Positions 3,706-30,134 of a DNA stretch of 43,879 nucleotides are shown piece by piece. The position numbers and the translations under genes were made by a program. Under the pieces are notes generated by a model. It did no database searches and had not been told where the DNA came from. It saw nothing but the letters and a program-made list of their open reading frames with translations. Every line of letters starts with the position of its first letter. Position 1 is the first letter of the stretch. Source of the stretch: a virus; IMG/VR virus record IMGVR_UViG_3300046011_008672, positions 1 through 43,879 of that record; one strand, written 5' to 3'.

Positions 3706-4860
3706 ATGCACTTCACCATTCAAAAAACACTATTCAGCAACGCCCTTGCCCGTGCCGCCGCCATTGCCGGAACCCGCTGCACCATGCCGGTACTGGCATG
3801 CGTACTGATCAAAGTAGATGAATTCGGCTGCCGGATCATAGCCACTGATCTTGATGTCAGCTTTGAAACCTACGTCGAGCACACCGATGATTATCTGCTT
3901 GATGGCCTGCAGACCCTCACCCTCTGTCTGCCTGCCAAGTTGCTGGCTGATGTAGTTAAATCAGTTCCGGCTCCTGAAGTTTGCCTGGAACTGGAAGACA
4001 ACCAGGTCACCATATCCGGCGGAACCGCCTCGTTCACAATCTCCCCGGTAGAACCGGATGAATTCCCCGAGCTGCCAGAAGTCAAGGGAGAACAATTTGA
4101 CCTTACTGCATCATCCCTGGTTGAGATCCTGCAGGATGTAGCCTACTGCCAAAGCAAAGACGCCAGCAAATACAACCTGTGCGGATGTTTTCTGAAGATA
4201 GAGCCTAACCAGGAAGAAGAACTATTCCTCACTGCAGTTGCCCTCGATGGTCACCGCCTGGCACTCTCAACCCTGCCCCTGCCAGGGGATCCACGCCCCG
4301 TACCTGCAGATCTGGCCAAGGGCATCATTGTCAGCACCAAAGGCGTCGCAGAAATCTGCAAAACCAAAGGCGTCGCCCCGGTCGTACTATCTATTGCCGG
4401 AAACAACCTTTGTATCGCTACCGATGCAGAAAAACTCTATATCCGCCTGATTGACGGAACCTACCCGGATGTAGATCGGGTTATTCCGCAAAATCATCCA
4501 CATAAGATCGAGATCAAGCGTGAAGCCCTCATAGACGCCCTGCAGCGGGTAAAGATCATCACCAGCAAAGACAATCCCGGTGTCAACTTCAGCACCTCAA
4601 TAGACTGCCTTAAGCTGTGCACCAGGCGTAAGGATGCAGGATCCTCTGCTTCAGATAAGGTATCTGCCTGGTTACCACAAGAACCGGTCCGCTTTACAGC
4701 AAAAGCAGATTATCTACTTCAGGCGCTTGAACACCTGACATCTGCAACCATCCAGATCCACTGCACCGCTGATGGTATGGCGCCGCTCTTAATCACCAAA
4801 CTGGGTACCGGTGAACCGCTGGCCGTAATCATGCCCATGCGTCCGGATGAGGTGGAGTAA
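3706..4860 (+). CDS. dnaN: DNA polymerase III beta sliding clamp
   Basis: A 384-residue protein with the full length and pattern of a bacterial DnaN. The N-terminal domain begins MHFTIQKTLFSNALARAAAI. It is followed by a CTMPVLACVLI segment and a LFLTAVALDGHRLALS stretch typical of the clamp middle domain. The C-terminus ends in LITKLGTGEPLAVIMPMR, matching the usual clamp tail. It would encircle DNA and tether polymerase III to the phage template. AAGGAG precedes the start. The stop overlaps the next start (TAATG). Bacterial-type clamps are uncommon in temperate lambda-like phages. Confidence 0.93.
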   Translation: MHFTIQKTLFSNALARAAAIAGTRCTMPVLACVLIKVDEFGCRIIATDLDVSFETYVEHTDDYLLDGLQTLTLCLPAKLLADVVKSVPAPEVCLELEDNQVTISGGTASFTISPVEPDEFPELPEVKGEQFDLTASSLVEILQDVAYCQSKDASKYNLCGCFLKIEPNQEEELFLTAVALDGHRLALSTLPLPGDPRPVPADLAKGIIVSTKGVAEICKTKGVAPVVLSIAGNNLCIATDAEKLYIRLIDGTYPDVDRVIPQNHPHKIEIKREALIDALQRVKIITSKDNPGVNFSTSIDCLKLCTRRKDAGSSASDKVSAWLPQEPVRFTAKADYLLQALEHLTSATIQIHCTADGMAPLLITKLGTGEPLAVIMPMRPDEVE

Positions 4861-5708
4861 TGGCAACCGACTTCGTGCAAATGGACCTGCTTGCCTGGGC
4901 CGGAGTTCATCCAGAGCAGCAGGAGCCGTCTCAATACCCGTTCGGTGATCGCTCTGTTGATGATCCGGATCCGGTTGCCGATATCGGAATTCCGGCATCA
5001 GAGCCAACTCTTGCTGATCTTTGTCGCTCCTGTAAGGCGGCACACCCCGGATGCGATAAGTGCTGCAGTCAGTGCACTGATCGTTGCAATGGTGGCCAGC
5101 GCTGCAGTTGGCCTGGTGTACCGGTTGATGTTCCTGCAGCTCAGCCAACAACCGATGAATACCGCGATAGCATCTGTGGTGAATGGCGCTTCTGCGACTA
5201 CCAGGACATCTGCTTTACTCCTGAAAATGAATCTGCCGGCATCTGTTTCCGGAGTGAACCACTAAAACTCCCTGAATCAGTATCCAGCCAGTTCACCCGT
5301 GATCAGAAAAAACTGCTGGCTGCCGGTTTTATGCTGGTCAGGTACAACCGTGAAGCCAAATTGATAGAAATATCTCTTCCGGATCCGGCTGATGGATGGG
5401 GGCAATTACCGCAATTTGCCACCTATGCTGCTGCAGAAAGAAAATTGAAAGAAGTCAAGGAAGCAGGACGCATAGAAACCGATCTGACGGGCAGAATAGT
5501 TATGTCCGGATGGAATCAGCCAAGCGGACTACTTAAGAGCGGTTTTGAATTCTACCGCGTGTATGGCTTCAAAAAATACGAAACAAACTTCTGTATCAAG
5601 GTAGGCAGCAAAAACTGGAGCAACCTGGCAAAGTACTCCAGCAAAGAAAAACTGCAGAACGCCTGGGGTGAACTAATGAACAACGACCCGAAAGCTTTGG
5701 AAGGATGA
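4860..5708 (+). CDS. Cysteine-rich hypothetical protein
   Basis: A 282-residue protein starting at an ATG that overlaps the clamp stop, which implies translational coupling. Residues of about 45-85 carry a dense run of cysteines (CRSC, CDKCC, CTDRC, CSWPG), probably binding one or more metal ions. The C-terminal 150 residues are mixed alpha/beta with many lysines and aromatic residues. I do not recognise the family. A DNA-binding or replication accessory role is suggested only by its neighbours. Confidence 0.6.
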   Translation: MATDFVQMDLLAWAGVHPEQQEPSQYPFGDRSVDDPDPVADIGIPASEPTLADLCRSCKAAHPGCDKCCSQCTDRCNGGQRCSWPGVPVDVPAAQPTTDEYRDSICGEWRFCDYQDICFTPENESAGICFRSEPLKLPESVSSQFTRDQKKLLAAGFMLVRYNREAKLIEISLPDPADGWGQLPQFATYAAAERKLKEVKEAGRIETDLTGRIVMSGWNQPSGLLKSGFEFYRVYGFKKYETNFCIKVGSKNWSNLAKYSSKEKLQNAWGELMNNDPKALEG

Positions 5709-5713
5709 TAGCC

Positions 5714-5986
5714 ATGCAATCAGAGCAAATGGAACTCACAAGGCATAATGAAGATGAACTCTGTAATTTGAAATCATGTCCATTTTGCGGAACAAGGGCA
5801 AAACATATGCTCGAAATAACTCTTTATAAAAAACCTGATGACAAATTTAGGGCCAATGTTTTTTGTTTTGGCCGCGCTTCTCACGGACCAAGTGTCCATG
5901 CTGAATGCCAAGAAGAAGCGTGCGATTCAGCTGCTGATCTGTGGAATGCACGCTTTAAGCAAAGAAAGCATGTAAAGGAAAATTAA
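5714..5986 (+). CDS. Lar-family restriction alleviation protein
   Basis: A 90-residue protein with the Lar signature: an N-terminal CPFCG zinc knuckle, a central strand-rich region and a C-terminal CxxxACDSAADLWNAR segment ending in the conserved A...WN. Lar proteins of lambdoid prophages reduce type I restriction of incoming or host DNA. GGAAGG at 5699-5704 is 9 nt from the ATG at 5714 but abuts the ATG at 5705, so I chose the former. The 5705 start overlaps the upstream stop and remains possible. Confidence 0.7.
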   Translation: MQSEQMELTRHNEDELCNLKSCPFCGTRAKHMLEITLYKKPDDKFRANVFCFGRASHGPSVHAECQEEACDSAADLWNARFKQRKHVKEN

Positions 5987-5987
5987 A

Positions 5988-6281
5988 ATGGCCTATTTCG
6001 CAAACGGAACCGAAGGAATGAACCTCGATGAACAATGTCACAATTGTATACATGGGTTAAATGAAGAAGCCTACTGCCCTATATATCACGCCCAGATTGA
6101 ATTTAACTACGATCAGCTGGAAAACCAAAAGCTGCAGCAATGCCTAAATATACTGATTAGCAAAAAAGGCGACTGCAAAATGAAAGAAACGCTAGATAAA
6201 TTAAACCTGCTGAAAAATCAAACAAGCAACAAGTGTGACCTAGAGCTATGGGAACAGGAACAAACCGACAGGGGCCTTTAA
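5988..6281 (+). CDS. Hypothetical protein with N-terminal Cys cluster
   Basis: A 97-residue protein with a CxxC...C...C arrangement in the first half (CHNC, later CPIYH and QQC) and a helical, lysine-rich C-terminal tail. It starts 2 bp after the previous stop, with AAGGAAAA upstream. It may be a small zinc-binding early protein. The family is not recognised. Confidence 0.5.
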   Translation: MAYFANGTEGMNLDEQCHNCIHGLNEEAYCPIYHAQIEFNYDQLENQKLQQCLNILISKKGDCKMKETLDKLNLLKNQTSNKCDLELWEQEQTDRGL

Positions 6282-6293
6282 GGTACCGTAATA

Positions 6294-6452
6294 ATGCGTT
6301 GGACTGGAGGATATGTGAGCAGAGATTACCCAATAACTAAATGTCCCAAGTGCGGCAGCCAAAACTTTGAACGGATTACTATTAAGCTGAGACCTATCAT
6401 TATTCACGGGATCAAGTGTTACCACTGCGGCTATGAGGGAGGTAAACAATGA
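6294..6452 (+). CDS. Small zinc-ribbon protein
   Basis: A 52-codon frame ending at 6452. It contains CPKCG, then after about 22 residues CYHCG, which is a classic two-knuckle zinc ribbon. A GTG at 6315 preceded by GGAGG at 6306-6310 is an alternative start giving 45 residues. The stop overlaps the ATG of the first DGR target (ATGA at 6449), so the two may be translationally coupled. It is probably a small DNA- or RNA-binding regulator. Confidence 0.5.
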   Translation: MRWTGGYVSRDYPITKCPKCGSQNFERITIKLRPIIIHGIKCYHCGYEGGKQ

Positions 6453-7189
6453 TACATAGCAAGACCTGCCTAAATCAAATAAGGGAAACTGACAAGTGTA
6501 TATGTGGTGCATGTGTGGGCCCTAACAACAGAAAGGAAAATCTAATGCAACCAATCGCAACCGTTATTAACAACAACCAACCAAGCTGGACCAACATTAT
6601 TGAGACGGCCCCCAATGTAACCCTTGAGGTAGGCACACAACTGTTTCTAGCTGAAGATTGCAAGAAAAAAAATGTGGCAGATCTGCCACAAATCGGCAGC
6701 GTCTTAGGCGGTGGCTTCTTCGGCGGTGAAATGATCATCGCTGGACAGCGTTATGCCCTAATTGTCGCCCCTAAATCTGAAGGCGAAAAGATGGAGCTGG
6801 AATACAAATCAAACGATCGCAGCACAGCTGACGGTACTGACAGCGACGATGACGGCCTGATCAACACCAACCTCATAAACGATGAAAACCACCCTGCAGC
6901 ACGCTTCTGCCGGTCACTCACTGTCGGAGGCCATGACGACTGGTACCTACCCTCACGTGATGAGCTGATGATGTTGTGGCGCAACCTGGGCCCACGCCGA
7001 AAAAATGTTCCAGAACTTTTCCGTGAGGATGCCACAGAAGCGTTTAACACTGACTGGTACTGGTCCAGCACCGAACTCGCCCAGTACTCAAGCGATGCCT
7101 GGATCGTGGGTTTCTTCAATGGCACCCAGGGCAACTACGATAAGGACTACGATTGTGGAGTCCGGGCAGTCCGCAGAATCCAAATTTAA
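6449..7189 (+). CDS. DGR1 target protein 1 (DUF1566 / C-type-lectin fold)
   Basis: A 246-residue protein. Residues of about 85-246 match the DUF1566 (Lcl C-terminal) pattern: YALIVAPKSEGE, a DGTDSDDDGLINT acidic loop, HPAARFCRSL, DDWYLPSRDEL, YWSSTE and a GVRAVRR C-terminus. DUF1566 domains adopt a C-type-lectin-like fold that serves as a DGR variable scaffold. Residues 210-243 are the variable repeat. The N-terminal 75 residues, with a C-rich CICGAC motif, are absent from the paralogue downstream. No signal peptide is visible. The start at 6449 has GGGAGG 6 nt upstream. An internal ATG at 6545 is an alternative. Confidence 0.88.
   Translation: MIHSKTCLNQIRETDKCICGACVGPNNRKENLMQPIATVINNNQPSWTNIIETAPNVTLEVGTQLFLAEDCKKKNVADLPQIGSVLGGGFFGGEMIIAGQRYALIVAPKSEGEKMELEYKSNDRSTADGTDSDDDGLINTNLINDENHPAARFCRSLTVGGHDDWYLPSRDELMMLWRNLGPRRKNVPELFREDATEAFNTDWYWSSTELAQYSSDAWIVGFFNGTQGNYDKDYDCGVRAVRRIQI
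7078..7177 (+). repeat. DGR1 variable repeat 1 (VR1)
   Basis: This 100-bp stretch aligns without gaps to the template at 8312-8411. I count 12 differences and all fall on template adenines (A to G, T or C). The final 27 bp (7151-7177) are identical and form the GC-rich initiation-of-homing segment. The repeat encodes residues 210-243 of the upstream DUF1566 target. Confidence 0.95.
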
Positions 7190-7225
7190 CAATTTAACCA
7201 TTTATCAATTTAGGGAGGTGCCGTC

Positions 7226-7750
7226 ATGGCAAAGAAAGTAGCAGTACCCCAGATAGGTGCAGCATTCGGTGGTGGGTTTTACGTAGGCAGCATGGAACTT
7301 GATGGCGTCAAATATGCCCTGGTGGTTTCACCAAAAGCCCAGGGTGAGAAGATGGGGCTGCAATACAAAAAGAGCAAGCTCAGCACTGCTGATGGTGCTG
7401 ACGCAGACGATGATGGCTTTTACAACAGCTGCCTGCTGGATAATGCCAACCATCCTGCAGCACACTTCTGTATCAGTCTTCAGATCGGTGAATATGATGA
7501 CTGGTACCTGCCTTCCCGTGATGAGCTGATGCTGATCTGGATGGCCCTGGGGCCAAACCGCAACAAAATCCCTGATCTGTTCAAGGCCGGTGCTGCAGAA
7601 GCGCTTGAGGGAAAATGGTACTGGTCCAGCACTGAATTCGCCCAGTACTCGGACGATGCCTGGATCGTGGGTTTCACCAATGGCGGCCAGGACTACTACG
7701 ATAAGGGCTACGATTGTGGAGTCCGGGCAGTCCGCAGATTAAAACTTTAA
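7226..7750 (+). CDS. DGR1 target protein 2 (DUF1566 / C-type-lectin fold)
   Basis: A 174-residue paralogue of the preceding target, consisting of little more than the DUF1566 domain: GGGFYVGSMEL, YALVVSPKAQGEK, an acidic DGADADDDG loop, HPAAHFC, DDWYLPSRDEL, YWSSTEF and GVRAVRR. Residues 138-171 are variable repeat 2. AGGGAGGTG lies about 8 nt before the ATG. The 36-bp spacer after target 1 resembles the spacer after this gene, so the duplication included flanking DNA. No signal peptide or membrane segment is seen. Confidence 0.88.
   Translation: MAKKVAVPQIGAAFGGGFYVGSMELDGVKYALVVSPKAQGEKMGLQYKKSKLSTADGADADDDGFYNSCLLDNANHPAAHFCISLQIGEYDDWYLPSRDELMLIWMALGPNRNKIPDLFKAGAAEALEGKWYWSSTEFAQYSDDAWIVGFTNGGQDYYDKGYDCGVRAVRRLKL
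7639..7738 (+). repeat. DGR1 variable repeat 2 (VR2)
   Basis: This 100-bp stretch aligns without gaps to the template at 8312-8411. It has 14 differences, all at template adenines, including one silent TCA to TCG. The last 27 bp (7712-7738) match exactly. Five variable codons carry the same substitution as VR1 (template codons 3, 6, 20, 21 and 24, counting the GCC at 8314 as codon 1). Confidence 0.95.
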
Positions 7751-7789
7751 CTATTTAACTATTTACCAATTTCAGACAGGAGCAACACC

Positions 7790-8143
7790 ATGGCCCTGGC
7801 CTCAACACTCCCCATATACCGAGTTACCTACGAGCTGCTGCAGGTAGTCACCCGCATAACCAAAGATATGCCACGGGACTACAAGCAATCACTAGGCAAC
7901 AAGATTCGTGAGGAATGTGTTGAGCTGACCGTGTTGATCTACCGGGCAAACTGTTCCCGTGAAAAGCGTCCACACATTGAAGCTCTGCAAGAACATCTGC
8001 AAGTGGCAACGCTTTTGATCAGGCTGTCAAAGGATATGCGGCTGATCAGCACGGGGCAGTTTGCCCAGACTATCCAACTAACTGACCAGATCGGACGGCA
8101 GGCATCCGGTTGGTTTAAATCCGCATCGTCGCCTGCTGCATAG
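7790..8143 (+). CDS. avd: DGR1 accessory variability determinant (Avd)
   Basis: A 117-residue, almost entirely helical, basic protein between target 2 and the template repeat, which is the position of Avd in most DGRs. Its pattern (an N-terminal YRVTYELLQVVTRITKDMPR helix, then KIREECVELTVLIYRA and HLQVATLLIRLSKDMRLIS) fits the four-helix-bundle Avd family. This family forms a pentameric barrel, binds the reverse transcriptase and template RNA, and is needed for mutagenic retrohoming. AGGAG precedes the ATG. The following 168 bp before the template has no convincing gene and probably belongs to the DGR RNA. Confidence 0.88.
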   Translation: MALASTLPIYRVTYELLQVVTRITKDMPRDYKQSLGNKIREECVELTVLIYRANCSREKRPHIEALQEHLQVATLLIRLSKDMRLISTGQFAQTIQLTDQIGRQASGWFKSASSPAA

Positions 8144-8311
8144 CCGTCATGGCGGCTATGCCTGTGCGAAATAATCTGGTCGTGCCCCTGGGGAATGCCC
8201 CACGGTTATGCGCCGGCAACGAAACCAGCAGGAAAGCCTGCAAGGTCGTGGCGCAGTTTCATAATGGATCGGTACCGCCTTCTGTTGTGCAACGTGATCA
8301 GCACGACATAA

Positions 8312-8411
8312 CGCCCAGAACTCAAACAATGCCTGGATCGTGGGTTTCAACAATGGCAACCAGAACAACAACAATAAGAACAACGATTGTGGAGTCCGGG
8401 CAGTCCGCAGA
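8312..8411 (+). repeat. DGR1 template repeat (TR1)
   Basis: The adenine-rich, non-variable template for VR1 and VR2. Read in the target frame it has 12 AAC/AAT codons, the codon type that can yield many amino acids without creating stops when A is mutated. It ends at the shared 27-bp segment 8385-8411, and the target frame then meets TAA at 8415-8417. The region 8144-8421 between avd and the RT is the expected DGR template RNA. A GCAGG/CCTGC hairpin with loop AAAG lies at 8228-8241 upstream of it. Confidence 0.95.
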
Positions 8412-8421
8412 TCATAACGAT

Positions 8422-9534
8422 GTGGATGTAACGGTTGATGAACTGCTCTGCGCCTATTACGACTGCCGTAGACGCAAGCGCAACACCATCAACGCATTGC
8501 GGTTTGAAACCAATTTAGAAAGCAACATCATGGGCCTGTACCGGGAACTGGTAGACGGCAGCTATCGCCCCGGTACATCCATCTGCTTTGTTGTCACCAG
8601 ACCTAAGCCGCGCGAGGTATGGGCTGCAGACTTCCGTGACAGGGTTGTGCACCATCTGCTTTACAACCGTATTGCAGATCGTTTCCATAACTCGTTCATG
8701 GCTGATAGCTGCGCCTGCATACCAGGAAGAGGCACGATGTACGGAGCAAAGCGGCTTGAACACAAAATCAGAAGCATCACACAAAACTGGTCACGGAAAG
8801 CCTATTACCTGAAGCTGGATATAGCCAACTTCTTTGTCAGCATCAACAAGAACATCCTGCATGATCTGCTGGCCAAGAAAATAACTGAACCGTGGGTCAT
8901 GTGGCTGGCCGAAACAATCCTTTTTCATGATCCACGGCAGGATGTAAAAATTAAGGGCAGCCGGGGACTACTACAACTAATTCCAAAACACAAGAGCCTG
9001 TTCAGTCAACCGACCCACCTGGGTCTTCCGATCGGCAACCTCAGTAGCCAGTTCTTTGCCAACGTCTACATGGATGCACTTGATCAGCACGTAAAACACC
9101 AGGTTAAGGCACAGCATTACATCAGATACGTAGATGACATGATTCTGCTGCACGAAGATCCGGCCTGGCTTAACAGCGCTACTACAGAAATAGGAACTTT
9201 TGCGTCGACCAAATTGGGACTCAAACTCAACCCGAGTAAAACCATCATCCAACCTATTAACCGTGGGGTTGATTTTGTTGGCCAAGTCATCAAGCCCTGG
9301 AGAAGGATTATGAGAAGAAGTCTACTAGACAATGCAACAGAGTCCATCATCAGTAAAAACAGTGAAGACCTGATGATGAGCGCCAACAGTTATTTAGGGC
9401 TACTCAGACAGTCCACTCGCAGCCACCATGCCCGTGCACGGCTGGCAAGGATAGCAATCGTCAAGGGGCATTGTGTGGATGGCGGGTTCAGGAAGATTTT
9501 CAGAAAAGGGCAAAAGCAAGGAATGCAATTATGA
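8422..9534 (+). CDS. DGR1 reverse transcriptase
   Basis: A DGR-type reverse transcriptase of about 370 residues from the GTG at 8422. Motifs include RDRVVHHLL, YLKLDIANFFVSI, GLPIGNLSSQ at about 201-210 and the catalytic YVDD at 236-239. IGxxxSQ in place of QGxxxSP is diagnostic of DGR RTs, which copy the template RNA with errors at adenines. The same frame is open back to ATG codons at 8353, 8329 and 8149, but those would translate the template region out of its target frame, and none has a good ribosome binding site. The true start is therefore uncertain. There is no maturase or endonuclease domain, so it is not a group II intron. Confidence 0.93.
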   Translation: MDVTVDELLCAYYDCRRRKRNTINALRFETNLESNIMGLYRELVDGSYRPGTSICFVVTRPKPREVWAADFRDRVVHHLLYNRIADRFHNSFMADSCACIPGRGTMYGAKRLEHKIRSITQNWSRKAYYLKLDIANFFVSINKNILHDLLAKKITEPWVMWLAETILFHDPRQDVKIKGSRGLLQLIPKHKSLFSQPTHLGLPIGNLSSQFFANVYMDALDQHVKHQVKAQHYIRYVDDMILLHEDPAWLNSATTEIGTFASTKLGLKLNPSKTIIQPINRGVDFVGQVIKPWRRIMRRSLLDNATESIISKNSEDLMMSANSYLGLLRQSTRSHHARARLARIAIVKGHCVDGGFRKIFRKGQKQGMQL

Positions 9535-9797
9535 TTCAACTACCGACCATGATCAAAATCAACGAAAAGCATACTCGTGCTGTCAATAAATATGACTGGT
9601 CTGGTTATAGCACAGCAGACATGAAACAGGCTTTGTTCGGAGAATTGATTGAACTGTACGATGCCTATTTTGAAAATAAGATCCACGGCCCCCACGGGGT
9701 AATTGATGAGGCCTATGATGCCATCGCCGTGCTGTTGCGCATTATTGAAACACTGGAGGGGGAAAAGAATGCAAGCAATAAAAACCCTACTGTTTGA
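9531..9797 (+). CDS. MazG-like nucleotide pyrophosphohydrolase
   Basis: An 88-residue helical protein whose ATG overlaps the RT stop (ATGA). The pattern FGELIELYDAY...H...EAYDAIAVLLRIIETLEG resembles the EExxE...ExxD metal-binding helices of small MazG/phosphoribosyl-ATP pyrophosphohydrolase-like proteins, which hydrolyse (d)NTPs. The assignment is moderate because the protein is short and the acidic motif incomplete. Overlap with the DGR1 reverse transcriptase suggests co-translation. Confidence 0.5.
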   Translation: MIQLPTMIKINEKHTRAVNKYDWSGYSTADMKQALFGELIELYDAYFENKIHGPHGVIDEAYDAIAVLLRIIETLEGEKNASNKNPTV

Positions 9798-9942
9798 CCC
9801 CCGCGTCTTCAGCTACATCATCATGGGGCTCTACCTGCTCAATGCCCTGCGATGGGCCTATGAACGCAAACCGGCTGATGTCTGCTACTGGCTCTCAGCC
9901 CTGGCAATCACCGCAACCGTAACCTTTGGGTATAAACACTAA
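9769..9942 (+). CDS. Small membrane protein
   Basis: A 57-residue protein with two hydrophobic segments (around residues 15-27 and 39-53) separated by a charged RWAYERKPAD loop. GGAGGGGG is placed about 7 nt before the ATG at 9769. The start lies within the end of the MazG-like gene, and the stop overlaps the next start. It is a possible holin or membrane accessory; no family is recognised. Confidence 0.5.
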   Translation: MQAIKTLLFDPRVFSYIIMGLYLLNALRWAYERKPADVCYWLSALAITATVTFGYKH

Positions 9943-10601
9943 TGTCAACCACCCACGCCACAGACCTGCAGGCCATCCTTGACGCTGCTATTGCCACCGC
10001 CAAGGCTAACCCCACTGCTGCCAACATCAGCACAGTGGAAAAGGCCCGTAAAGCACTGGATGACTACAGCAATCAGGGTGGTGCTGCTGGCGAAAAATTC
10101 AAGACTCAGGCAGCGGCTCTGCTCTATCTGCAGCGCACCTACAAAATCGAGAAAAGCAAACTCTCTGCAGATGTCCAGTCTGGCAAAGTACCCCGCAAAG
10201 ATGGCACCTTCTCTGCCAAGGATCTGGACTACTACGCCAACGCCGTACGGCTGGATCCTAAAACCAGTGAACCACAACAAAGCAGTGATGGCCTGTCAGA
10301 CGACATCAAGCGCGAGACCGCCCGTAAACTCAGAATAAACAACGAAGAACGTGAAGGACTGCTGATAAACCGGCTGGAAGAAGAGGCAAGGGACGCGAAG
10401 CTCTGGTCAGCTGTTAAATCAGATATTGAAAACCACGCCCCTGTCATTGTGCATGAACTAATAAACCGGCTGCTGCCCATTATCGAAGACGATGAACTGC
10501 GTGCCAGGGTGTTGTCACTAACCCATGAACTGCGGCTGGTATATGAGGATGCCATTGCAGATATCTTTGACCGTTACGCAAAGATAGAGGGCGAAGAGTG
10601 A
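9942..10601 (+). CDS. Probable terminase small subunit
   Basis: A 219-residue protein immediately upstream of, and overlapping, the large terminase gene. The centre (KDLDYYANAVRLDPK) and the following charged helical region (KRETARKLRINNEEREGLLINRLEEEARD) recall the coiled-coil half of Nu1-like small subunits, which recognise the cos or pac site and recruit the large subunit. Family assignment rests mainly on position and this helical pattern. Confidence 0.65.
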   Translation: MSTTHATDLQAILDAAIATAKANPTAANISTVEKARKALDDYSNQGGAAGEKFKTQAAALLYLQRTYKIEKSKLSADVQSGKVPRKDGTFSAKDLDYYANAVRLDPKTSEPQQSSDGLSDDIKRETARKLRINNEEREGLLINRLEEEARDAKLWSAVKSDIENHAPVIVHELINRLLPIIEDDELRARVLSLTHELRLVYEDAIADIFDRYAKIEGEE

Positions 10602-12475
10602 GCATAGCAACCCTGCCCATACCTTCGGCGCCAGCGCCCAGGGCAGCAGAACGCAAGGTCTTTGCCAAGCGTAAGCGTTTGCCAGGGCCCCAGTGGTTTG
10701 AGCGCAATATCAACGTACCGGTCGGCAGCCGTCAAGGCCTCTACCGCAACCAGAACAACCCTGCCATGTGGGGCGTGCTGGATTGGGCCACCCGCAGCCA
10801 TGTTCGTACAGTGGTACTGGCCAAAGGCATCCAGATCGGAGGCACCCTTGCCTTTTACGGCCTGCTGCTGCGCGAAGGTGAATACACCAGCGACAATGCC
10901 TTAATAGTTGTTGCTGATGAACGCACCCTTAAAAAACTGATCAAAAAGCGGCTGCATAAGATGATAGACAGCAGCCCGTCCCTGTCAGCTATTAAATCAG
11001 CAAACCCTGATGATACCACCATGTATAGCGTTACCCTGGGTAACGGCTTCACCATTGAAGGCGGCTGGGCATCATCAGAAGTATCAGTATCGTCTGAATC
11101 CTACCGGGTAGTTATTCTGGATGAGATCAGTAAATACAAAACCCGTGGCAACATTGAGGATGCAAAAAGCCGCACCACCGTCTTTCCGGACACACACAAG
11201 ATTTGGATACTCTCCAGCCCCGGAATAGACACCGATGATCCGGAAAACCGTGATCCCCTGATGGTAGAGGCTGAAGCATGTGACGTCATGCTTGAATTCC
11301 ACGCCAAATGCCCTGATTGCGGCAAAGAACAGGTCATGACCTTTGACCGGTTCGGCTGGCCCGGACAAGTTAACCTTGAAGGACAGACAGAGGCAGACCC
11401 CAAGGCAATCCGCCGCAACCGCTCTGCCTGGTACCAGTGTGAACACTGCAACAGCCGTTGGAACGACTACAAGCGGGATAAAGCCATACTGTCAGCCATG
11501 AAAACCGGCTGGCAGCCAACCGATGGCTGTGACATCGAGCGCCCCCAGTCAGTCTACTTCCACTTTCCGGCCTGGCTGTCTCCCTATGTCAGCCTGTCAG
11601 AAGTAGCGGCCAGCTGGCTGGAAGCCCAGGGGGATGAAGAAAAACTGCGCAAGTGGCACAACCGCTTTGCCGGGGTAAGCCACAGATCAGAAAAGAAAGC
11701 TCTGCCCCACTCAACCATTATGAGGCTCAAGGATGATCGACCTGAAGGATTGGTGCCTTCCGTGCCCATTGCTGCCATCACCTGTATTGCTGACATGCAG
11801 AAGCGCGGTTTTTGGTACAAGGTCACTGCTTGGGGTTATGGTCTCCAGCAGGAAAGCTGGCTACTGAAAGCCGGTTTTATTGATTCATTTGACGCCCTTA
11901 AACAGATCATGTTTGAAAGCCAATACCAGGATATATCCGGCAACAACTACAACGTAACCCTGCGCGGTATGGATTCCGGCGGTGGCGAAGGCGAAGAACA
12001 CCAGGATCTGTCCCGTACTGCCGAGGCATACCTGTTTGCAGCTGCAAACCCTGGGGTATTGCTCTTTAAAGGTCGCCGCCGTCTTTCCCGCAGCTTCAAC
12101 GTAACCGATATAGACCGACTGCCGGGCACTAACAAGCCGCTGCCGGGATCGGCCAAGCTCTACACCCTCAACACCACTTTCTTTAAAGACAAGCTAGCTG
12201 CCAAACTGCTGGTATCCTCTGACGATCCGGGAGCCTATCACCTGCATAAAGACACTGATGAAGACTTTGCAAAGCAGATGTGCTCAGAAACCAAGAACGA
12301 ACAAGGCGTGTGGGTATGTCCAAAGGGCAAAGACAACCACTACTTCGACTGTTCAAGCATGGAAATGGCTTTGATAGAGATCTCCCAAGTAAAATTCTGG
12401 CCAGAGCCTGGCCAGATTCCGGCAAATCAGCCCAGGAAGACACAACAACACAGAAACGATAACAGGAGGTGGTAA
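10598..12475 (+). CDS. Terminase large subunit, GpA family
   Basis: A 625-residue protein with the lambda gpA-like organisation. An N-terminal ATPase has a degenerate P-loop region near LAKGIQIGGTLAFYG, a VIVADE segment and a Walker B in YRVVILDEISKYK. A zinc-binding insert (CPDCG...CEHCNSRW) lies at about residues 240-290. The C-terminal nuclease has GMDSGGGEGEEHQD and DNHYFDCSSMEMAL. It packages DNA into the prohead and cuts at packaging sites, working with the portal. The stop lies just before the next ribosome binding site, AGGAGGT. Confidence 0.92.
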   Translation: MSIATLPIPSAPAPRAAERKVFAKRKRLPGPQWFERNINVPVGSRQGLYRNQNNPAMWGVLDWATRSHVRTVVLAKGIQIGGTLAFYGLLLREGEYTSDNALIVVADERTLKKLIKKRLHKMIDSSPSLSAIKSANPDDTTMYSVTLGNGFTIEGGWASSEVSVSSESYRVVILDEISKYKTRGNIEDAKSRTTVFPDTHKIWILSSPGIDTDDPENRDPLMVEAEACDVMLEFHAKCPDCGKEQVMTFDRFGWPGQVNLEGQTEADPKAIRRNRSAWYQCEHCNSRWNDYKRDKAILSAMKTGWQPTDGCDIERPQSVYFHFPAWLSPYVSLSEVAASWLEAQGDEEKLRKWHNRFAGVSHRSEKKALPHSTIMRLKDDRPEGLVPSVPIAAITCIADMQKRGFWYKVTAWGYGLQQESWLLKAGFIDSFDALKQIMFESQYQDISGNNYNVTLRGMDSGGGEGEEHQDLSRTAEAYLFAAANPGVLLFKGRRRLSRSFNVTDIDRLPGTNKPLPGSAKLYTLNTTFFKDKLAAKLLVSSDDPGAYHLHKDTDEDFAKQMCSETKNEQGVWVCPKGKDNHYFDCSSMEMALIEISQVKFWPEPGQIPANQPRKTQQHRNDNRRW

Positions 12476-12477
12476 AC

Positions 12478-12678
12478 ATGGCAAAAGCGAAGGAAGCACC
12501 GGATACGGCAGACATTCTAGTGGGCATGAAGGCTATCTGCAATTATCTGCGCAGGAGTGAAGTAACGGTGCTTAAGTGGCGAAAAGAATATGATGATTTC
12601 CCGGTTAAAAAAGACGGCCAGCTAACAGCCACCAGATCAGCTCTCCAGAAGTGGATTTATGCAACATTTGGAGGGTAG
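12478..12678 (+). CDS. Small winged-helix DNA-binding protein
   Basis: A 66-residue protein from the ATG at 12478, preceded by AGGAGGT at 12464-12470. The sequence GMKAICNYLRRSEVTVLKWRKEYDDFPV...ALQKWI is a MerR/Nu1-like winged-helix DNA-recognition domain. In lambda such a domain sits at the N-terminus of the small terminase Nu1. Here it is a free-standing protein directly after the large subunit. It may contribute packaging-site recognition or regulate late genes; both are inference. Confidence 0.6.
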   Translation: MAKAKEAPDTADILVGMKAICNYLRRSEVTVLKWRKEYDDFPVKKDGQLTATRSALQKWIYATFGG

Positions 12679-12692
12679 ATCTGGGGCACGAG

Positions 12693-12717
12693 CAAGGCGG
12701 CTTAACTAGCCGCCTTG
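12693..12717 (+). other. Hairpin after the terminase operon
   Basis: A perfect 9-bp inverted repeat (CAAGGCGGC / GCCGCCTTG) with a 7-nt loop lies 15 bp after the HTH gene. No T-tract follows, so it may be an RNA-stabilising or regulatory structure rather than a simple terminator. The rest of the gap up to 12903 has no gene. Its last part (about 12820-12890) is A/C-rich with several near-repeats of CAAAAACACCC. Confidence 0.5.
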
Positions 12718-12903
12718 GTTAAGCTTGTAGGTTCGCACGAATTTCGTGAAGTAGTCGAGGATTCGGAAGACAGACGCCTTGAAAAACAAAGGAAAACACC
12801 GCCAGTTTTTAGACTGTCAACCCCCAAAAACACCCATAAAATACCTCAAAAACACCCAAAAGATACCCCAAAAAAGCCGTTAATTTTACGTTACATTAAA
12901 AAC

Positions 12904-12939
12904 AACCCCTTATGATGCTTACCATCATCGGGGGTTTTT
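12904..12939 (+). terminator. Rho-independent terminator before gpW
   Basis: A two-part stem, AACCCC/GGGGTT outside and ATGATG/CATCAT inside, with a short internal mismatch, is followed by TTTTT. It ends 2 bp before the ATG at 12942. A terminator abutting a start codon is unusual and could instead control initiation of the gpW-like gene by occluding its ribosome binding region. Confidence 0.65.
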
Positions 12940-12941
12940 AA

Positions 12942-13181
12942 ATGGCGCTTTACACACTGGCAGAACTTGAGACCGAAATAACCACCTGGAAGGCTGCGCT
13001 TTCCAGACTGAACCATCAGGCCGTGGTGAAGATCGGTGACAACGAGATCCATGCCCGCGACATTGATAAAGTCCGCTCTCACCTGCAATGGCTTGATCAG
13101 CAGCGTGATTCTGCCTTAGTCTGCTCAACCCCTGCCCCTGCTGTTGGTCGCACCTATGCCAGAACCGGACGGAACCGCTAA
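12942..13181 (+). CDS. gpW-like head-tail joining protein
   Basis: A 79-residue basic protein located between terminase and portal, exactly where lambda gpW lies. The pattern of an N-terminal helix (LAELETEITTWKAALSRL), a short hairpin (VVKIGDNEIHARDI) and a second helix (VRSHLQWLDQQRDS) matches the gpW fold. gpW plugs the portal after packaging and provides the tail attachment surface. The stop and the next start share TAATG. Confidence 0.75.
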   Translation: MALYTLAELETEITTWKAALSRLNHQAVVKIGDNEIHARDIDKVRSHLQWLDQQRDSALVCSTPAPAVGRTYARTGRNR

Positions 13182-14746
13182 TGGGTATCATCACCAACAT
13201 AGAGCGGGGGCTTGATCGTGCCATTGGCCTGTTTTCCCCTGGCTCTGAAGTCAAGCGGATTCTGCTGCGTCAACAGGCAGAAAAAGCCCGTATGTATGCC
13301 GCTGCCAAAACAACCCGCTCCACTGGTGGCTGGTCGCCTGTTGGTCAGGATGTCAATACCCTGATCCGTTCCAGCTCTGTTCAAATCCGCAACCGCTCCC
13401 GTCAGCTTGTCCGTGACTTCGCTTATTTTGCCCGTGCCGTTGATATTCTGGTTGATTATACCGTGGGAACCGGCGTGCAACTGCAAAGCCGTGTGACCCG
13501 TGGCGTTGATGCTGAGACGGGAAAGAGCCGCCTGCATACCGCAAAAATTAACGAGATTGAAACCGCTTGGTGGCGCTGGATGGAAGAGGCTGATGCCTCA
13601 GGCCGTTTGCACTATCACGAGCTTGAACAACTGGCAAAACGGCAGGATGTAGAATCAGGTGAGTTTCTGTTTGTAAAGGTGAATCTGCCGGACAAGAACC
13701 GCTTTTTGCCCTTTGCCCTTATCCCCTATGAATCTGACTGGCTTTGTTCCGATTACATTAATCCGCAATCCGGCAACGTGGTTGATCAAGGTATTGAAGC
13801 TGATCCGGCAACAGGCCGGGTTATCGCCTATCACTTCAGGGTGCCTGATGGTTTTAACAACCTGACCGGCGGACAGAAAAGCCAGCGGATTCTGGCTGAA
13901 AACGTGATCCACGGATTCAAGACACTGCGCCCTGGACAGATACGGGGAATCTCTCCCTTTACTACAGCAATCCTGCTGGCTGATGACCTGCACGAATACT
14001 TAAACGCAGAGATTGACGCTGCCAAACATGCTGCAAAGCGTTTGGCTGTTGTCACCACCAGCGATATTGCCGGATTCCAGAACATGCGAGCCACAACCGA
14101 TGCCGAAACCGGAAAGCGGATTGAAGAGCTTGAAAACGCCTTTATCGAATACCTGCGCCCTGGTGAAACTATCACCTTTGACGGCAGCAACCGACCCGGC
14201 GACACCTTTGAACCATTTACCCGCCTGGTGTTGCGGATGGTAGCGGTATCAACCGGCGTTACATACGAACTGCTGACCGGAGATTATAACGGGATCAACT
14301 ACAGCAACTTGCGCGGTATCCGCAACGATTTTATGAAGATCATTGCACCGCTGCAGCAACGGCATATTCGCCAGTTCTGCCAGCCGGTATTCAGGGCGTT
14401 TCTTGATTCTGCAGTGCAATCAGGCCGTATCAGCTTGCCTGGATATTTCAGCAACCCTTACCCTTGGCAAGAATGTACCTGGCAGCCGCCCGGTGTTGAG
14501 AGCATTGATCCGCTGCGTGAAGGTAAAGCCTACATCGACCAGATCAACAGCCTGCTGAGAAGCCCGCAAGAGATCACCGCCAGCCGTGGCCGTGATTACG
14601 AAGAGGTGCTGAACGAGATTGCAGAAGCCAAACGGATGGCAGATGCACGGGGCTTGTCACCTGCTGATGTAAAAACCGCTCTGGCAAATGCACCCTCTGC
14701 CGTAGATCCGGCAACCAACGGAAAAGGAGCAACCACAAATGACTGA
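13181..14746 (+). CDS. Portal protein, lambda gpB family
   Basis: A 521-residue portal protein. Characteristic stretches include RQLVRDFAYFARAVDILVDYTVGTG near the N-terminus, GEFLFVK, GISPFTTAILLADDLHEYL and TGVTYELLTGDYNGINYSNLR near residue 370. The dodecameric portal forms the DNA entry channel and binds terminase and gpW. Its 3' end overlaps the capsid gene by 8 bp. Confidence 0.93.
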   Translation: MGIITNIERGLDRAIGLFSPGSEVKRILLRQQAEKARMYAAAKTTRSTGGWSPVGQDVNTLIRSSSVQIRNRSRQLVRDFAYFARAVDILVDYTVGTGVQLQSRVTRGVDAETGKSRLHTAKINEIETAWWRWMEEADASGRLHYHELEQLAKRQDVESGEFLFVKVNLPDKNRFLPFALIPYESDWLCSDYINPQSGNVVDQGIEADPATGRVIAYHFRVPDGFNNLTGGQKSQRILAENVIHGFKTLRPGQIRGISPFTTAILLADDLHEYLNAEIDAAKHAAKRLAVVTTSDIAGFQNMRATTDAETGKRIEELENAFIEYLRPGETITFDGSNRPGDTFEPFTRLVLRMVAVSTGVTYELLTGDYNGINYSNLRGIRNDFMKIIAPLQQRHIRQFCQPVFRAFLDSAVQSGRISLPGYFSNPYPWQECTWQPPGVESIDPLREGKAYIDQINSLLRSPQEITASRGRDYEEVLNEIAEAKRMADARGLSPADVKTALANAPSAVDPATNGKGATTND

Positions 14747-16685
14747 TCAACTGGCCTACCGGTCTTTAACTATTGAGAAAAACGACAGCGGCACGCCTTC
14801 AACACTGGATATTGAGAACCGTTCTGTTGAGGCGATTGGAGCAACAGAAACCCCGGTGCTTGAGCGTGATTATGACAGCTGGGAACTGTATCCAACCGTG
14901 CTGCTGATGTCTGGCTGCCAGATCCCGCCTAATCGGCAACTGCCACTGTTAGACACTCACAGCCGTTACAGCACTGCTTCTGTTATCGGCAGTTATCGTG
15001 ATGTTCGTATTGAGGGCAATCAACTGCTGGGCAGAGCTGTTTTCTCAAAAGCGCCTGAAGCGGAAGGCCCCTGGCTGAAGACTATGGAAGGCCACTTGAC
15101 CGATTACAGCGTTGCCAGAAAAGACCTTGAGGCAACCATTATCCCAGCCAACCAGACCGGCATGATTGAGGGCAGAACTTTTCAAGGCCCGGTGAAGGTC
15201 GTTACCAAATGGATTCCACGCGAAATGTCAAGCTGCCCCATTGGAGCAGATGAAAACGCTAAAGCACGGGCGGCCACGGCACAGCCCGAAAACCAAGCAA
15301 AGGAGAACGTAAACATGAGTACAGAAACTCAGAACCGTGGCCTCTCCGCAGAGACCACACAACCGCAGATCCCGGCTGTAGACCTTGAGGCAGTACGGGC
15401 AGAGGCAGTACGGGCAGAACATGCACGGATTACAGAGATTGATGCAATGTGCAGCCGCTCTGATATCCCGGCAGACAAAAAGGCAGACCTGATCAAGCCC
15501 GGCGTAACGGTTGATGCAGCCCGTAAAGCGGTGCTTGATATCATCCTGGAGCGTTCCGAAGCACAGAACCCCGGCGTTAAAACCACCACACAGACTGACA
15601 GCCTGCGTACTCTGGAGATGGGCGCTGATGAGCGTGATAAATTCCGCTCTGCTGCTGAGGATGGTCTTTTGATCCGTTCCGGCAAAGCCCCTAAAGAAGC
15701 CGCTGCCGGTGCAAGAGACCTGGCTGGTTATAGCCTGCGTGAGCTTGCCCGTGAATCTTTGAGAATGGCCGGACAATCACAAGGCGGCGATGCAATGGGC
15801 ATGGTTGGCCGTGCTCTTACAACCTCTGATTTTCCGATGATCCTTGCCAACATTGCCAACAAGAGCCTGTTTGCAGGCTATGAAGCAGCAAGCGAAACCT
15901 GGCAGAAGTGGTGCGGAACCGGATCAACTTCTGACTTTAAAACCAACACCGTTGTCCGTGCTGGCGAGATGGCAGACCTTGATCAGATCCGTGAGGATGA
16001 TGAATACAAGTACGGTGCCCGTTCTGAAGCCCAGGAGCAGTTCGCTATCGCCACGTATGGCAAGCTGTTTATGATCTCCCGTCAGGCCATTATCAATGAT
16101 GATCTGGGTGCGCTGACCGATATCCCTGCAGCACATGGCGAAGCAGCAGGCCGCAAGTTGGGTGATATTGCCTATGCAGTGCTGACCGCAAACGCAGCCA
16201 TGGGTGACGGAACCGCACTGTTCCACGCCAACCACACCAACCTTGGCACTTCTGGCGTTATCGGCACCACCACCATTGCAGAGGCTATCAAGCTGATGGC
16301 GCTGCAAAAGGATATCGGCGGAAAGCGCCGTCTGAACATTGCCCCTAAATATCTGATCACCTCCCCTGCACTGGCACAGGCTGCACAGACCTTCTTTAAC
16401 TCCAGCATGATAGGTACTCAGGCACTGCCTAACCAGGTCAATATTTATGCCGGGCTGCTTGATCTGGTCTTTGAGCCACGCCTGTTTGATGACTCTGCAA
16501 CCGCCTGGTATCTGGCAGGGGATAAAGGCAAGACCGTCAATATGTACTTCCTGAACGGAAACCAGACCCCATACATGGAGACCAAGCAGGGCTGGAGCGT
16601 TGACGGCGTGGAGTACAAGGTACGAATTGACGCAGGTGCAAAGGCCATTGACTGGAAGAGCCTGTTTAAGAATGCCGGGGCTTAA
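14739..16685 (+). CDS. Prohead protease fused to major capsid protein
   Basis: A 648-residue fusion. Residues 1-165 look like an HK97-type (S78/U35) prohead protease, with LLDTHSRYSTASVIGSY supplying a candidate catalytic His and LTDYSVAR a candidate Ser. Residues of about 190-290 form a helical scaffold-like linker. Residues 340-648 are the capsid domain with AIATYGKLFMISRQAIINDD, GTALFHANHTNLGT and a YLAGD...VNMYFLNGNQTPYME tail. An in-frame ATG at 15315 with AAGGAGAA before it could yield scaffold-capsid without the protease. Confidence 0.88.
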   Translation: MTDQLAYRSLTIEKNDSGTPSTLDIENRSVEAIGATETPVLERDYDSWELYPTVLLMSGCQIPPNRQLPLLDTHSRYSTASVIGSYRDVRIEGNQLLGRAVFSKAPEAEGPWLKTMEGHLTDYSVARKDLEATIIPANQTGMIEGRTFQGPVKVVTKWIPREMSSCPIGADENAKARAATAQPENQAKENVNMSTETQNRGLSAETTQPQIPAVDLEAVRAEAVRAEHARITEIDAMCSRSDIPADKKADLIKPGVTVDAARKAVLDIILERSEAQNPGVKTTTQTDSLRTLEMGADERDKFRSAAEDGLLIRSGKAPKEAAAGARDLAGYSLRELARESLRMAGQSQGGDAMGMVGRALTTSDFPMILANIANKSLFAGYEAASETWQKWCGTGSTSDFKTNTVVRAGEMADLDQIREDDEYKYGARSEAQEQFAIATYGKLFMISRQAIINDDLGALTDIPAAHGEAAGRKLGDIAYAVLTANAAMGDGTALFHANHTNLGTSGVIGTTTIAEAIKLMALQKDIGGKRRLNIAPKYLITSPALAQAAQTFFNSSMIGTQALPNQVNIYAGLLDLVFEPRLFDDSATAWYLAGDKGKTVNMYFLNGNQTPYMETKQGWSVDGVEYKVRIDAGAKAIDWKSLFKNAGA

Positions 16686-16701
16686 TAGCACTCACCCCTG
16701 A

Positions 16702-16726
16702 CCCCTCTCCCGAAATGGGAGAGGGG
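16702..16726 (+). terminator. Strong hairpin between capsid and decoration genes
   Basis: A perfect 10-bp stem (CCCCTCTCCC / GGGAGAGGGG) with a 5-nt loop lies between the capsid gene and the decoration gene. No T-run follows, so it may act as an mRNA stabiliser or processing site that tunes the capsid/decoration ratio rather than as a full terminator. It also resembles short palindromes dispersed in some bacterial chromosomes. Confidence 0.55.
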
Positions 16727-16753
16727 AACTAAAACAACTAAGGAGAAAATCCA

Positions 16754-17077
16754 ATGAAAACATATCTGCAAGATGGAACCAGAATTGATTTTACTGCCGG
16801 TGCTGATGTTGCCTCCGGTGCTGGCGTGCTGATCGGTGTACGCATGGGTGTTGCCGTTAGTGACGTGCCTAACGGCGCTGTTGGCGTTGCCGCTATGTCC
16901 GGCGTTTTTGAACTGCCTAAACTCTCAACTGATGTGGTCGCAATCGGCGTGCTGCTGTACTGGGACAACACCAACAAGCGGATCACCGTCACCTCATCCG
17001 GCAACACTCTGGCCGGTTATGCGTTTGAGGCCGCAGGCAACGGCGTTGCAACCGTTAAGATCAAAATTAACGCCTGA
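16754..17077 (+). CDS. Capsid decoration protein (DUF2190-like)
   Basis: A 107-residue, small, glycine- and valine-rich beta protein (FTAGADVASGAGVLIGVRMGVAV, then YWDNTNKRIT and TLAGYAFEAAGNGVATVKI). This is the DUF2190 pattern found next to capsid genes. These proteins bind capsid vertices or faces and stabilise the shell. AAGGAG precedes the ATG, and the stop overlaps the next start (TGATG). Confidence 0.85.
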   Translation: MKTYLQDGTRIDFTAGADVASGAGVLIGVRMGVAVSDVPNGAVGVAAMSGVFELPKLSTDVVAIGVLLYWDNTNKRITVTSSGNTLAGYAFEAAGNGVATVKIKINA

Positions 17078-17367
17078 TGCAATTTAGCCCCGCCGACATA
17101 ACCGCCATGATTGACGCCATGGGCCAGCCGGTAACCGTGGGGCTTGCACAGACCACCGCAGTATTCAACACCGGCCCCCGTGAAGTGGCCCGCAACGGCA
17201 TGACGGTTTACACCGACACCCCCACCCTGCTGGTATCAGTAGCCGTGGGGGATCTGGTGGAAAAGAATCTTACCATCATCACGGTAGATGATGTTGATTA
17301 TCAGGCATTTGAAAAAGTGCCAGACGGCTCCGGCTTTGTAGAGCTGGACCTAACGAGGGACTTCTAA
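17077..17367 (+). CDS. Head-tail joining protein (gpFII-like)
   Basis: A 96-residue protein with an N-terminal helix followed by a compact beta domain (VTVGLAQTTAVFN, LLVSVAVGDLVEKNLTIITVDDVDYQAF...GFVELDL). This is the usual form of small head-tail joining or Gifsy-2/gpFII-like proteins placed after capsid genes. It probably completes the head-tail connector. Confidence 0.7.
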   Translation: MQFSPADITAMIDAMGQPVTVGLAQTTAVFNTGPREVARNGMTVYTDTPTLLVSVAVGDLVEKNLTIITVDDVDYQAFEKVPDGSGFVELDLTRDF

Positions 17368-17594
17368 TGGTCACTGATGCTGCAAAAATGGCGCTTGGTC
17401 TTACCGGCACTGCAGCAGTATGTGCAGAAATGATAAATAGCCCGGTCATGATAGCTGCAACACAAGTGATTATTGTTACAACTTGCGTTGTGGTCATGGC
17501 TCACATTCTCATTGGTTGCTTCAAAGCAAACCGCAAAGGCAAGCGCAAACAGGAGGCTCGGCGTGGAAGAGCTGACAAAACTGATGCCACCTGA
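17367..17594 (+). CDS. Membrane protein, candidate holin or lysis accessory
   Basis: A 75-residue protein with two closely spaced hydrophobic stretches (around residues 9-24 and 27-50) and a strongly basic C-terminus (KANRKGKRKQEARRGRADK). It is the first gene of a lysis-type cluster that continues with another membrane protein, lysozyme and spanins. Topology and position fit a class II holin, but no conserved holin motif is recognised. Confidence 0.5.
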   Translation: MVTDAAKMALGLTGTAAVCAEMINSPVMIAATQVIIVTTCVVVMAHILIGCFKANRKGKRKQEARRGRADKTDAT

Positions 17595-17820
17595 TGTCGG
17601 CTGGAAAGTCGCTGGCTGGTCGTTCACTGCTGCGATAACCATGGGCACCATGCTCTATAAGGGAGTATGGAAGCGGATTAACCAACTGGCTGAAGAACAG
17701 GACGAAACCCGCACTGATGTAGACAGGCTGATAGGTGCCTGTGGCGTAAACCACCCCAAGCAAACGCCCTGGGCAGGTTCAGAACGCAGAAAATCAAAAG
17801 AGGATACAGACGATGAATAA
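17563..17820 (+). CDS. Second membrane protein of the lysis cassette
   Basis: An 85-residue protein from a GTG at 17563 with AGGAGG at 17551-17556, clearly better than the upstream in-frame ATG at 17473 that lies inside the previous gene. One hydrophobic segment (VAGWSFTAAITMGTMLYKGV) is followed by a charged coiled-coil-like tail. It overlaps both neighbours. With the preceding gene it could form a holin/antiholin or two-component holin, which is an inference. Confidence 0.55.
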   Translation: MEELTKLMPPDVGWKVAGWSFTAAITMGTMLYKGVWKRINQLAEEQDETRTDVDRLIGACGVNHPKQTPWAGSERRKSKEDTDDE

Positions 17821-18286
17821 AACACGAATCGGCATAGCCTCTTTAATGCTTTCCGCCCTAGGGATGATTGGCATAGCCAACCACGAGCAGTTTGTAGGCC
17901 ACACCTACAAAGACGCGGTGGGTGTCAACACTATTGGCTACGGCACCACCGCTGGTGTCAAACCTGGCCAGACCATTACGCCAGAACGTGCCCTGATCCG
18001 GCTGGGTCAAGATATCGGCCAGTTTGAAAAGGGAATAAAAGCCTGTCTGCCTGTAGACCTGCCCTTACATCAGTATGAATGGGATGCCTATGTTTCCCTC
18101 GCCTACAACATCGGCACCGGAGCTTTTTGCCGGTCCAGCATTGTCCGCAAGCTGAAGCAGGACCCGTCTGATTATGCCGGTGCCTGTGAATCTATCCTGC
18201 TGTTTAACAAGGCAGGCGGCAAAGTCTTAAAGGGACTGGTGGTACGCAGGCAGGCTGAATACAAGCTGTGTAAAGGTGAAAAATGA
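17813..18286 (+). CDS. Signal-anchor-release lysozyme (GH24 endolysin)
   Basis: A 157-residue phage lysozyme. Catalytic positions match the T4/P21 family: Glu25, Asp34 and Thr40 with NTIGYGTT following. The N-terminal 22 residues are weakly hydrophobic and rich in Gly, Ala and Ser, which is the mark of a SAR endolysin that is exported by Sec, held inactive in the membrane and released on depolarisation. It cleaves peptidoglycan, which favours a pinholin among the adjacent membrane proteins. Confidence 0.9.
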   Translation: MNKTRIGIASLMLSALGMIGIANHEQFVGHTYKDAVGVNTIGYGTTAGVKPGQTITPERALIRLGQDIGQFEKGIKACLPVDLPLHQYEWDAYVSLAYNIGTGAFCRSSIVRKLKQDPSDYAGACESILLFNKAGGKVLKGLVVRRQAEYKLCKGEK

Positions 18287-18505: not shown

Positions 18506-18508
18506 ATC

Positions 18509-19541: not shown

Positions 19542-19560
19542 ACAAAAGGAGGGCTAAATA

Positions 19561-20523: not shown

Positions 20524-20537
20524 AAGGAAGGATAGCC

Positions 20538-23872: not shown

Positions 23873-23875
23873 CCC

Positions 23876-28775: not shown

Positions 28776-28778
28776 CAG

Positions 28779-30119: not shown

Positions 30120-30134
30120 TCGAGCGAAAGCGAG

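Follow-up and report, generated by a model that had tools for sequence, protein, structure and literature searches.

Diversity-generating retroelements (DGRs) in which a single template repeat (TR) serves several paralogous targets are already in print (Schillinger et al., 2012, PMC3521204; Yan et al., 2019, PMC6642488), and one template with two paralogous targets is, by the accessible parts of these papers, a known arrangement. According to the available portions of the second, 28.6% of DGRs have several VRs and 79.9% of those have one TR, a Vibrio cholerae case has two DUF1566 targets, and a clade of multi-VR DGRs was noted from the reverse transcriptase (RT) tree. Two targets on one TR are also described, in the accessible text, for phages nd4 and nd12 (tentaclins, PMC10743442). 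How a target is told from its template, and how new targets are gained, has been worked out mainly for BPP-1, with a hairpin after the VR being central: as stated in the available text of Guo et al. (2011, PMC3240598), efficient homing depends on a GC-rich hairpin/cruciform that follows the VR and has a loop of 4 nt.

Here we analyse a stretch of 43,879 nucleotides, namely, positions 1 to 43,879 of the IMG/VR virus record IMGVR_UViG_3300046011_008672 (hereafter, the window), from a phage that encodes an integrase. Like the multi-VR DGRs of PMC3521204 and PMC6642488, the locus termed DGR1 has one TR, several paralogous targets and independent adenine changes; unlike them, as far as the accessible parts of both papers go, it is tied to the RT-15 class and to an octad array specific to VRs. 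With BPP-1, as described in the available text of PMC3240598, it shares Avd, adenine mutagenesis, an IMH at the 3' end of the VR and a downstream element, but VR1 and VR2 lack the GC hairpin and have an AT-rich octad array, and the RNA families differ (RT-15 in DGR1, Phage_DGR in BPP-1). The targets of nd4 and nd12 differ in topology, by the accessible part of PMC10743442, whereas DGR1 has paralogous targets that share a fold. Magia (Burkholderia phage, MT701587) and Cruim01 (Pseudomonas phage, PP179333) carry RT-15 DGRs that belong to the family of DGR1; the Cruim01 record labels RT-15, and in the Magia record two lectin-fold proteins are already marked as possible targets of a DGR. Magia (L011) has a third VR at 7488–7578, in the second of tandem genes, annotated only as a hypothetical protein.

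Anatomy of the two DGRs in the window

DGR1 comprises the following features (matrix scores are explained below).

6449–7189, + strand: target 1, Lcl_C (DUF1566), 246 aa as longest ORF (PF07603, E 7e-14)
7078–7177, + strand: VR1, 3' end of target 1; 12/12 mismatches to TR1 at adenines
7178–7211, + strand: octad array after VR1, TTTAACAA TTTAACCA TTTATCAA TTT; proposed target mark
7226–7750, + strand: target 2, Lcl_C, 174 aa (PF07603, E 3e-12; AlphaFold2 pLDDT 94.7; PDB 8q4e)
7639–7738, + strand: VR2, 3' end of target 2; 14/14 mismatches to TR1 at adenines
7739–7772, + strand: octad array after VR2 (matrix 16.2 in register, 21.4 one step on)
7790–8143, + strand: Avd accessory protein, 117 aa (bAvd PF22296, E 2e-16; PHROG 3206, 'Avd protein of DGR')
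8127–8313, + strand: RT-15 structured RNA, directly 5' of TR1 (Rfam RF03018, 145.8 bits vs gathering 82)
8312–8411, + strand: TR1, template repeat; 12 AAY (Asn) codons in the VR frame
8422–9534, + strand: reverse transcriptase RT1 (RVT_1, E 3e-18; PHROG 1423, E 1e-110)

The original prediction, made from the letters of the window, was that VR1 and VR2 both align to the single TR1 over 100 bp with 12 and 14 differences, all at template adenines, and that the final 27 bp are the same in the three copies. A fresh, ungapped alignment returned exactly these figures: VR1 differs by 5 A>T, 6 A>G and 1 A>C, and VR2 by 4 A>T, 9 A>G and 1 A>C, with 26 of 26 mismatches on template adenines and none on a non-adenine template base, and the shared 27-bp end is unchanged despite the adenines within it. 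TR1 holds 35 adenines (35% A), and the simple binomial chance of 26 out of 26 is 0.35^26, or about 1e-12. Homology ends sharply at 8411 in TR1, 7177 in VR1 and 7738 in VR2, and the 12 AAY codons of TR1 take the same reading frame in target 1 as in target 2. Only three A-biased repeat pairs were found in the whole window, on both strands, namely, TR1/VR1, TR1/VR2 and the unrelated pair 30500–30605/29996–30101.

The two targets, predicted to be DUF1566 paralogs, indeed both match Lcl_C (PF07603) and are 58% identical ahead of the VR. The best PDB match to the model of target 2 is 8q4e, the C-terminal domain of Legionella Lcl (E 1e-6), animal C-type lectins being weaker matches. Viral matches of target 2 include DUF1566 domains within long tail-fibre-like proteins; targets 1 and 2 are free-standing, and their genes are located outside the tail module. 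That they are putative interchangeable binding tips or displayed lectins is, in our judgement, an even bet.

RT1 adjoins TR1, is homologous (33% identical) to the BPP-1-like RT2 listed below, and includes in its translation IGNLSSQ, which we take to be the SQ motif of DGR-type reverse transcriptases. Its start is likely the GTG at 8422. The longest ORF, 8149–9534, stays open through the RT-15 RNA and TR1, and tblastn similarity to Shewanella and Burkholderia phages extends through this RNA/TR stretch, probably because the RT-15 RNA is conserved. RT matches of 1.8–1.9 kb in three related loci (L002, L004 and L015) suggested an insertion in the RT, a candidate that was rejected, as blastn aligns the cassettes without a gap; we take the long matches to arise from the query ORF, which starts in the RNA/TR and also matches VR2.

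With adenine-specific TR/VR pairs, an RT beside the TR, an Avd, lectin-fold targets bearing the VR at their 3' ends, an unmutated IMH and an RT-15 RNA above its gathering score, DGR1 is very probably a DGR with two paralogous Lcl_C targets on one template. Judged by sequence, it would be an active DGR of the RT-15 class, on a movable cassette in an integrase-bearing phage. Elsewhere, at 3706–4860, the phage encodes a DNA polymerase processivity factor (PHROG 947, E 2e-63).

The second element, DGR2 (28779–31740), is a complete BPP-1-type DGR, with Phage_DGR RNA, a BPP-1-like RT and an Mtd-like target.

28779–30119, + strand: Mtd-like tail protein, DGR2 target (mtd_2nd, E 9e-22; PHROG 11262, tail protein), directly after the tail-tip gene
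29996–30101, + strand: DGR2 VR; differs from TR2 at 13 adenines and 1 non-adenine
30135–30488, + strand: DGR2 Avd (bAvd, E 4e-23)
30500–30605, + strand: TR2, from the A-biased repeat-pair scan
30625–30747, + strand: Phage_DGR RNA of DGR2 (Rfam RF03022, 73.7 bits vs gathering 50)
30766–31740, + strand: RT2, BPP-1-like reverse transcriptase, 48% identical to BPP-1 brt

The whole-window scan gave no cross-match between a VR of one DGR and the TR of the other. The non-adenine mismatch of DGR2 is a T in TR2 and a G in the VR, inside the repeat. After the DGR2 VR there is no perfect stem of at least 5 bp, the DNA fold has z 0.39 against shuffles, and imperfect stems may be present. A search of 49 RT-15 records with RT2 gave two matches, neighbouring pieces that we take to be one RT.

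Targets per template in the RT-15 class

A first scan of 13 related loci found 12 with one TR and two or three VRs, whereas the exception, L007, has an RT that is more distant (45%) and lacks an RT-15 match. Scanning with the RT-15 core motif returned at least 119 loci, 90 of those listed having enough sequence to be assessed. By the strict VR count, and with loci of the same phage left unmerged, at least two VRs share one TR in 81 of these 90 assessable loci among the matches listed: 64 have two VRs, 16 three and one four, and the others have one (6 loci) or none (3 loci). Mismatches fall at a template A in 2925 of 2980 cases (212 VRs of the class, among the matches listed). Two or more targets per template are nearly the rule in the RT-15 class; this class-wide rule, as well as the clean natural phage pair of the next section, goes beyond what we found in print.

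Of the nine loci below two VRs in the strict count, three (L037, L115 and L124) show a second one under a relaxed search. Two more, L092 and L110, are identical across the shared stretch to L106, in which a VR lies remote and inverted; a remote Lcl_C gene, likewise inverted, is present in the L092 record. In L078 one VR was found. Three others (L043, L074 and L107) retain the RT-15 RNA and Avd, whereas the TR is truncated and the RT is without a match, and they appear to be dead DGRs in which the RT has been replaced by another gene while the target genes are still adjacent. In L106 (1455–1559) and in the L092 record, the second target lies about 6.8 kb off, on the strand opposite to the TR.

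The targets were placed in a tree by a quick method, the careful search being unfinished. In this quick tree, the proximal and second targets of Pseudomonas-type loci form separate groups (31 proximal rows, support 98), and two targets have therefore long been maintained there. The target pair of the Geobacter group (the window, L003, L004, L005 and L015) forms its own lineage (10 rows, support 100). Outside the cassette (about 6551–9516), blastn gives no match to the contigs of L003 and L005 and one 879-bp match to that of L004; since the flanks are almost unmatched outside DGR1, the cassette travels. The closest cellular copy that we found is in a Geobacteraceae MAG.

Separate rewriting of the VRs

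The original prediction also held that the two targets draw on a common source of mutations yet evolve separately, and named a VR1 or VR2 that is invariant in all related genomes as an outcome that would speak against it. VR1 does vary. The whole 18,757-bp contig that contains locus L002 (termed L156) matches window positions 6992–25748 (18,757 bp) without a break and with 14 differences, all 14 at template-adenine sites of VR1; VR2, the TR, the RT and all else are identical. These differences alter 10 residues of target 1. A phage pair that over 18.8 kb differs at 14 VR1 adenines only provides clean natural evidence that targets on one template are rewritten singly. Between near-identical genomes of this phage, no change was seen in VR2; its divergence from TR1, together with its relatives, suggests that VR2 is active too.

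Among the near-identical related locus pairs listed, which are not independent of each other, VR sites at template adenines differ in 360 of 1843 cases. The corresponding figures are 23 of 4079 for the remaining VR sites, 4 of 3072 for the TR and 861 of 168,157 for the flanks; in many near-identical pairs the VRs are without any change. Independence of the VRs within a genome was evaluated from 98 loci with at least two VRs. In 90 of these the two VRs are distinct, and for 87 there were other genomes of similar TR to compare with. The share of identical mutated sites was higher within the genome than the between-genome mean in 41 of the 87, with a mean excess of 0.001 of adenine sites. This result supports the view that the VRs of one genome behave like independent draws from a shared template and, with the rewriting of VR1 only in L156, bears out the separate evolution that had been predicted.

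Gene conversion between VR1 and VR2, by which they would share changes and not evolve separately, could be suspected from the window itself, where both have the same base at 5 of 7 jointly mutated sites (75 nt tested). As a general explanation it is ruled out by the 87 genomes, in which VR sharing within a genome equals that between genomes, and, with VR1 alone changed between L156 and the window, we regard it as highly improbable. We hold a comparably dim view of ordinary recombination, which would have imported a homologous VR1 with no retrohoming. Donors do exist, because DGR1 cassettes move between phages (89% identity to L004 over 6551–9482, with flanks almost without blastn match), but an imported tract would need ends exactly at the VR edges: over 18,757 bp every difference lies at one of the 14 template-adenine sites, and both versions of VR1 still differ from the TR at adenines only. 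A chimeric assembly, joining two DGRs from different phages, is also unlikely, if less so. Both DGR types were seen together in no other record searched (Phage_DGR RNA in 0 of 50 other RT-15 records, many of them fragments, by the same search that detects it in the window; RT-15 in 0 of 14 RT2-like records), and no contig was found that covers window positions 25748–31740. However, L156 matches 6992–25748 unbroken, and DGR2 lies directly after the tail-tip gene gpJ (24879–28775), within the tail module.

The reading we prefer for VR1 and VR2 is rewriting from the shared template. The transcript of the RT-15 RNA and TR would be copied by an Avd/RT complex, with random bases placed opposite template adenines, and the cDNA would replace either VR1 or VR2, each in an event of its own. 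As many as 12 positions with Asn codons could thereby be altered on the C-type-lectin face of either target, for which a binding function seems plausible.

An octad array 3' of the VRs

Comparison of 200 distinct TR/VR pairs shows that roughly half of the adenines are mutated up to some 21 bp ahead of CGCAG and hardly any from there on, the figures being 66 of 173 pairs at −23, 9 of 180 at −20 and 0 of 200 at the A within CGCAG. The last ~25 bp, which stay unmutated (IMH) and are common to the TR and both VRs, could not alone tell target from template; since TR and VR are alike in the IMH, we infer that the two must be distinguished by something beyond the repeat. The array starts exactly beyond the repeat end. 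Its class-wide consensus in VR flanks is CGCAGATT-NNNN-A-TTTAAYNM-TTYATYNA-TTT, with TT pairs 8 bp apart, and conservation extends to about 31 nt from the start of CGCAG and no further. Once 5 mis-anchored of 168 VR flanks (two of L024, one of L102 and two of L112) had been dropped, TT was present at each of the three phased positions in 56 of the 66 VR flanks that are non-redundant, versus 0 of 20 TR flanks, and the two post-stop TT positions co-occur in 59 of the 66, compared with a shuffled mean of 2.1 and a maximum of 8. Remote targets also carry the array. Of 225 targets, 218 have a stop codon that starts at offset 15 or 18, ahead of the conserved offsets 20–31.

An independent matrix, built from 61 flanks that do not belong to the Geobacter group, was scored on both strands of the window. 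In register, at 7180, the VR1 flank scores 21.4, rising to the window's top score of 26.2 one step further, and the TR1 flank scores −15.3. The three best sites of the window are all in the flanks of VR1 and VR2, and two unrelated sites (16.7 and 16.5) outscore the in-register array of VR2. Under the same matrix, 11 of 11 VR flanks of the Geobacter group score at least 15.1 and 6 of 6 TR flanks −15.3 or less; in a held-out test on other phages, 74% of VR flanks exceed 8 bits. The exact composite pattern occurs in 79 stretches of the viral collection, a pattern that contains the IMH end and hence is no blind test of the array alone. In 62 further loci there are 64 pattern sites, of which 36 follow a VR detected with its TR and 0 follow a TR only; when inspected by eye, 24 of the other 28 come after a readable Lcl_C-like end, and 4 (L170, L172, L211 and L213) are out of frame upstream.

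Within 80 nt after VR1 or VR2 no GC-rich hairpin with a stem of at least 7 bp was found, and the DNA 3' of both folds no better than shuffles (z −0.7). Across the class, a GC hairpin lies within 80 nt of 67 out of 109 proximal VRs as well, those listed being mostly of the Pseudomonas type, and part of the class may still benefit from a hairpin. Guidance by base pairing would call for a sequence complementary to the array within the RT-15/TR RNA; the longest match there is 6 nt, with nothing notable, and this candidate was rejected.

On these sequence patterns, we lean towards the array being a target mark, in which about three 8-bp AT-rich steps 3' of each VR would take the role of the GC hairpin of BPP-1. 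It is somewhat probable that RT-15 DGRs recognise their targets by this sequence-specific AT-rich 8-bp array after the IMH, and not by a hairpin of the BPP-1 type. The array might then be read by the Avd/RT complex or serve as a strand-opening site, and we give slightly better than even chances to the array alone separating target from template. A lesser, albeit still sizeable, chance goes to the array having no part in homing and being either a signal for translation, termination or mRNA stability or a remnant inherited through gene duplication. It does overlap the stop codon, is often just upstream of the next start codon, and some VRs are followed by terminator-like hairpins. Yet the array keeps a fixed position at the VR end even among phages whose targets share only about 30% identity, and at remote targets too, its conservation stops at offset 31 with the remaining flank unconserved, and it is absent after the TR.

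If the array does mark targets, any gene end with an IMH and an array could become one, which would explain the presence of two to four targets, some of them kilobases away or inverted. One template would serve a growing set of targets wherever IMH and array are copied, including the other strand, and perhaps also targets in phages that have lost their RT. A short conserved array that follows almost all VRs, but none of the TRs, of a large phage DGR class would offer a testable second answer to how targets are discriminated and gained, and a portable tag for programmed diversification. No array of this kind was found in the accessible parts of open-licence PMC papers, including PMC3240598, PMC12875486 and PMC3521204, and a VR-specific octad array, absent after the TR, is apparently new with respect to print.

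Target gene ends with the array and no RT1 match occur in 8 of 23 records searched (L170, L172, L176, L181, L197, L200, L208 and L223). Several of these are short contigs, yet L200 is 56.5 kb and L208 37 kb, and they possibly hold orphan targets served in trans. In L007, the locus with the distant RT and no RT-15 match, the VR flank within 5204–6014 reads CTTTAACCTTTTCACTTTTAAG, which resembles the octad array.
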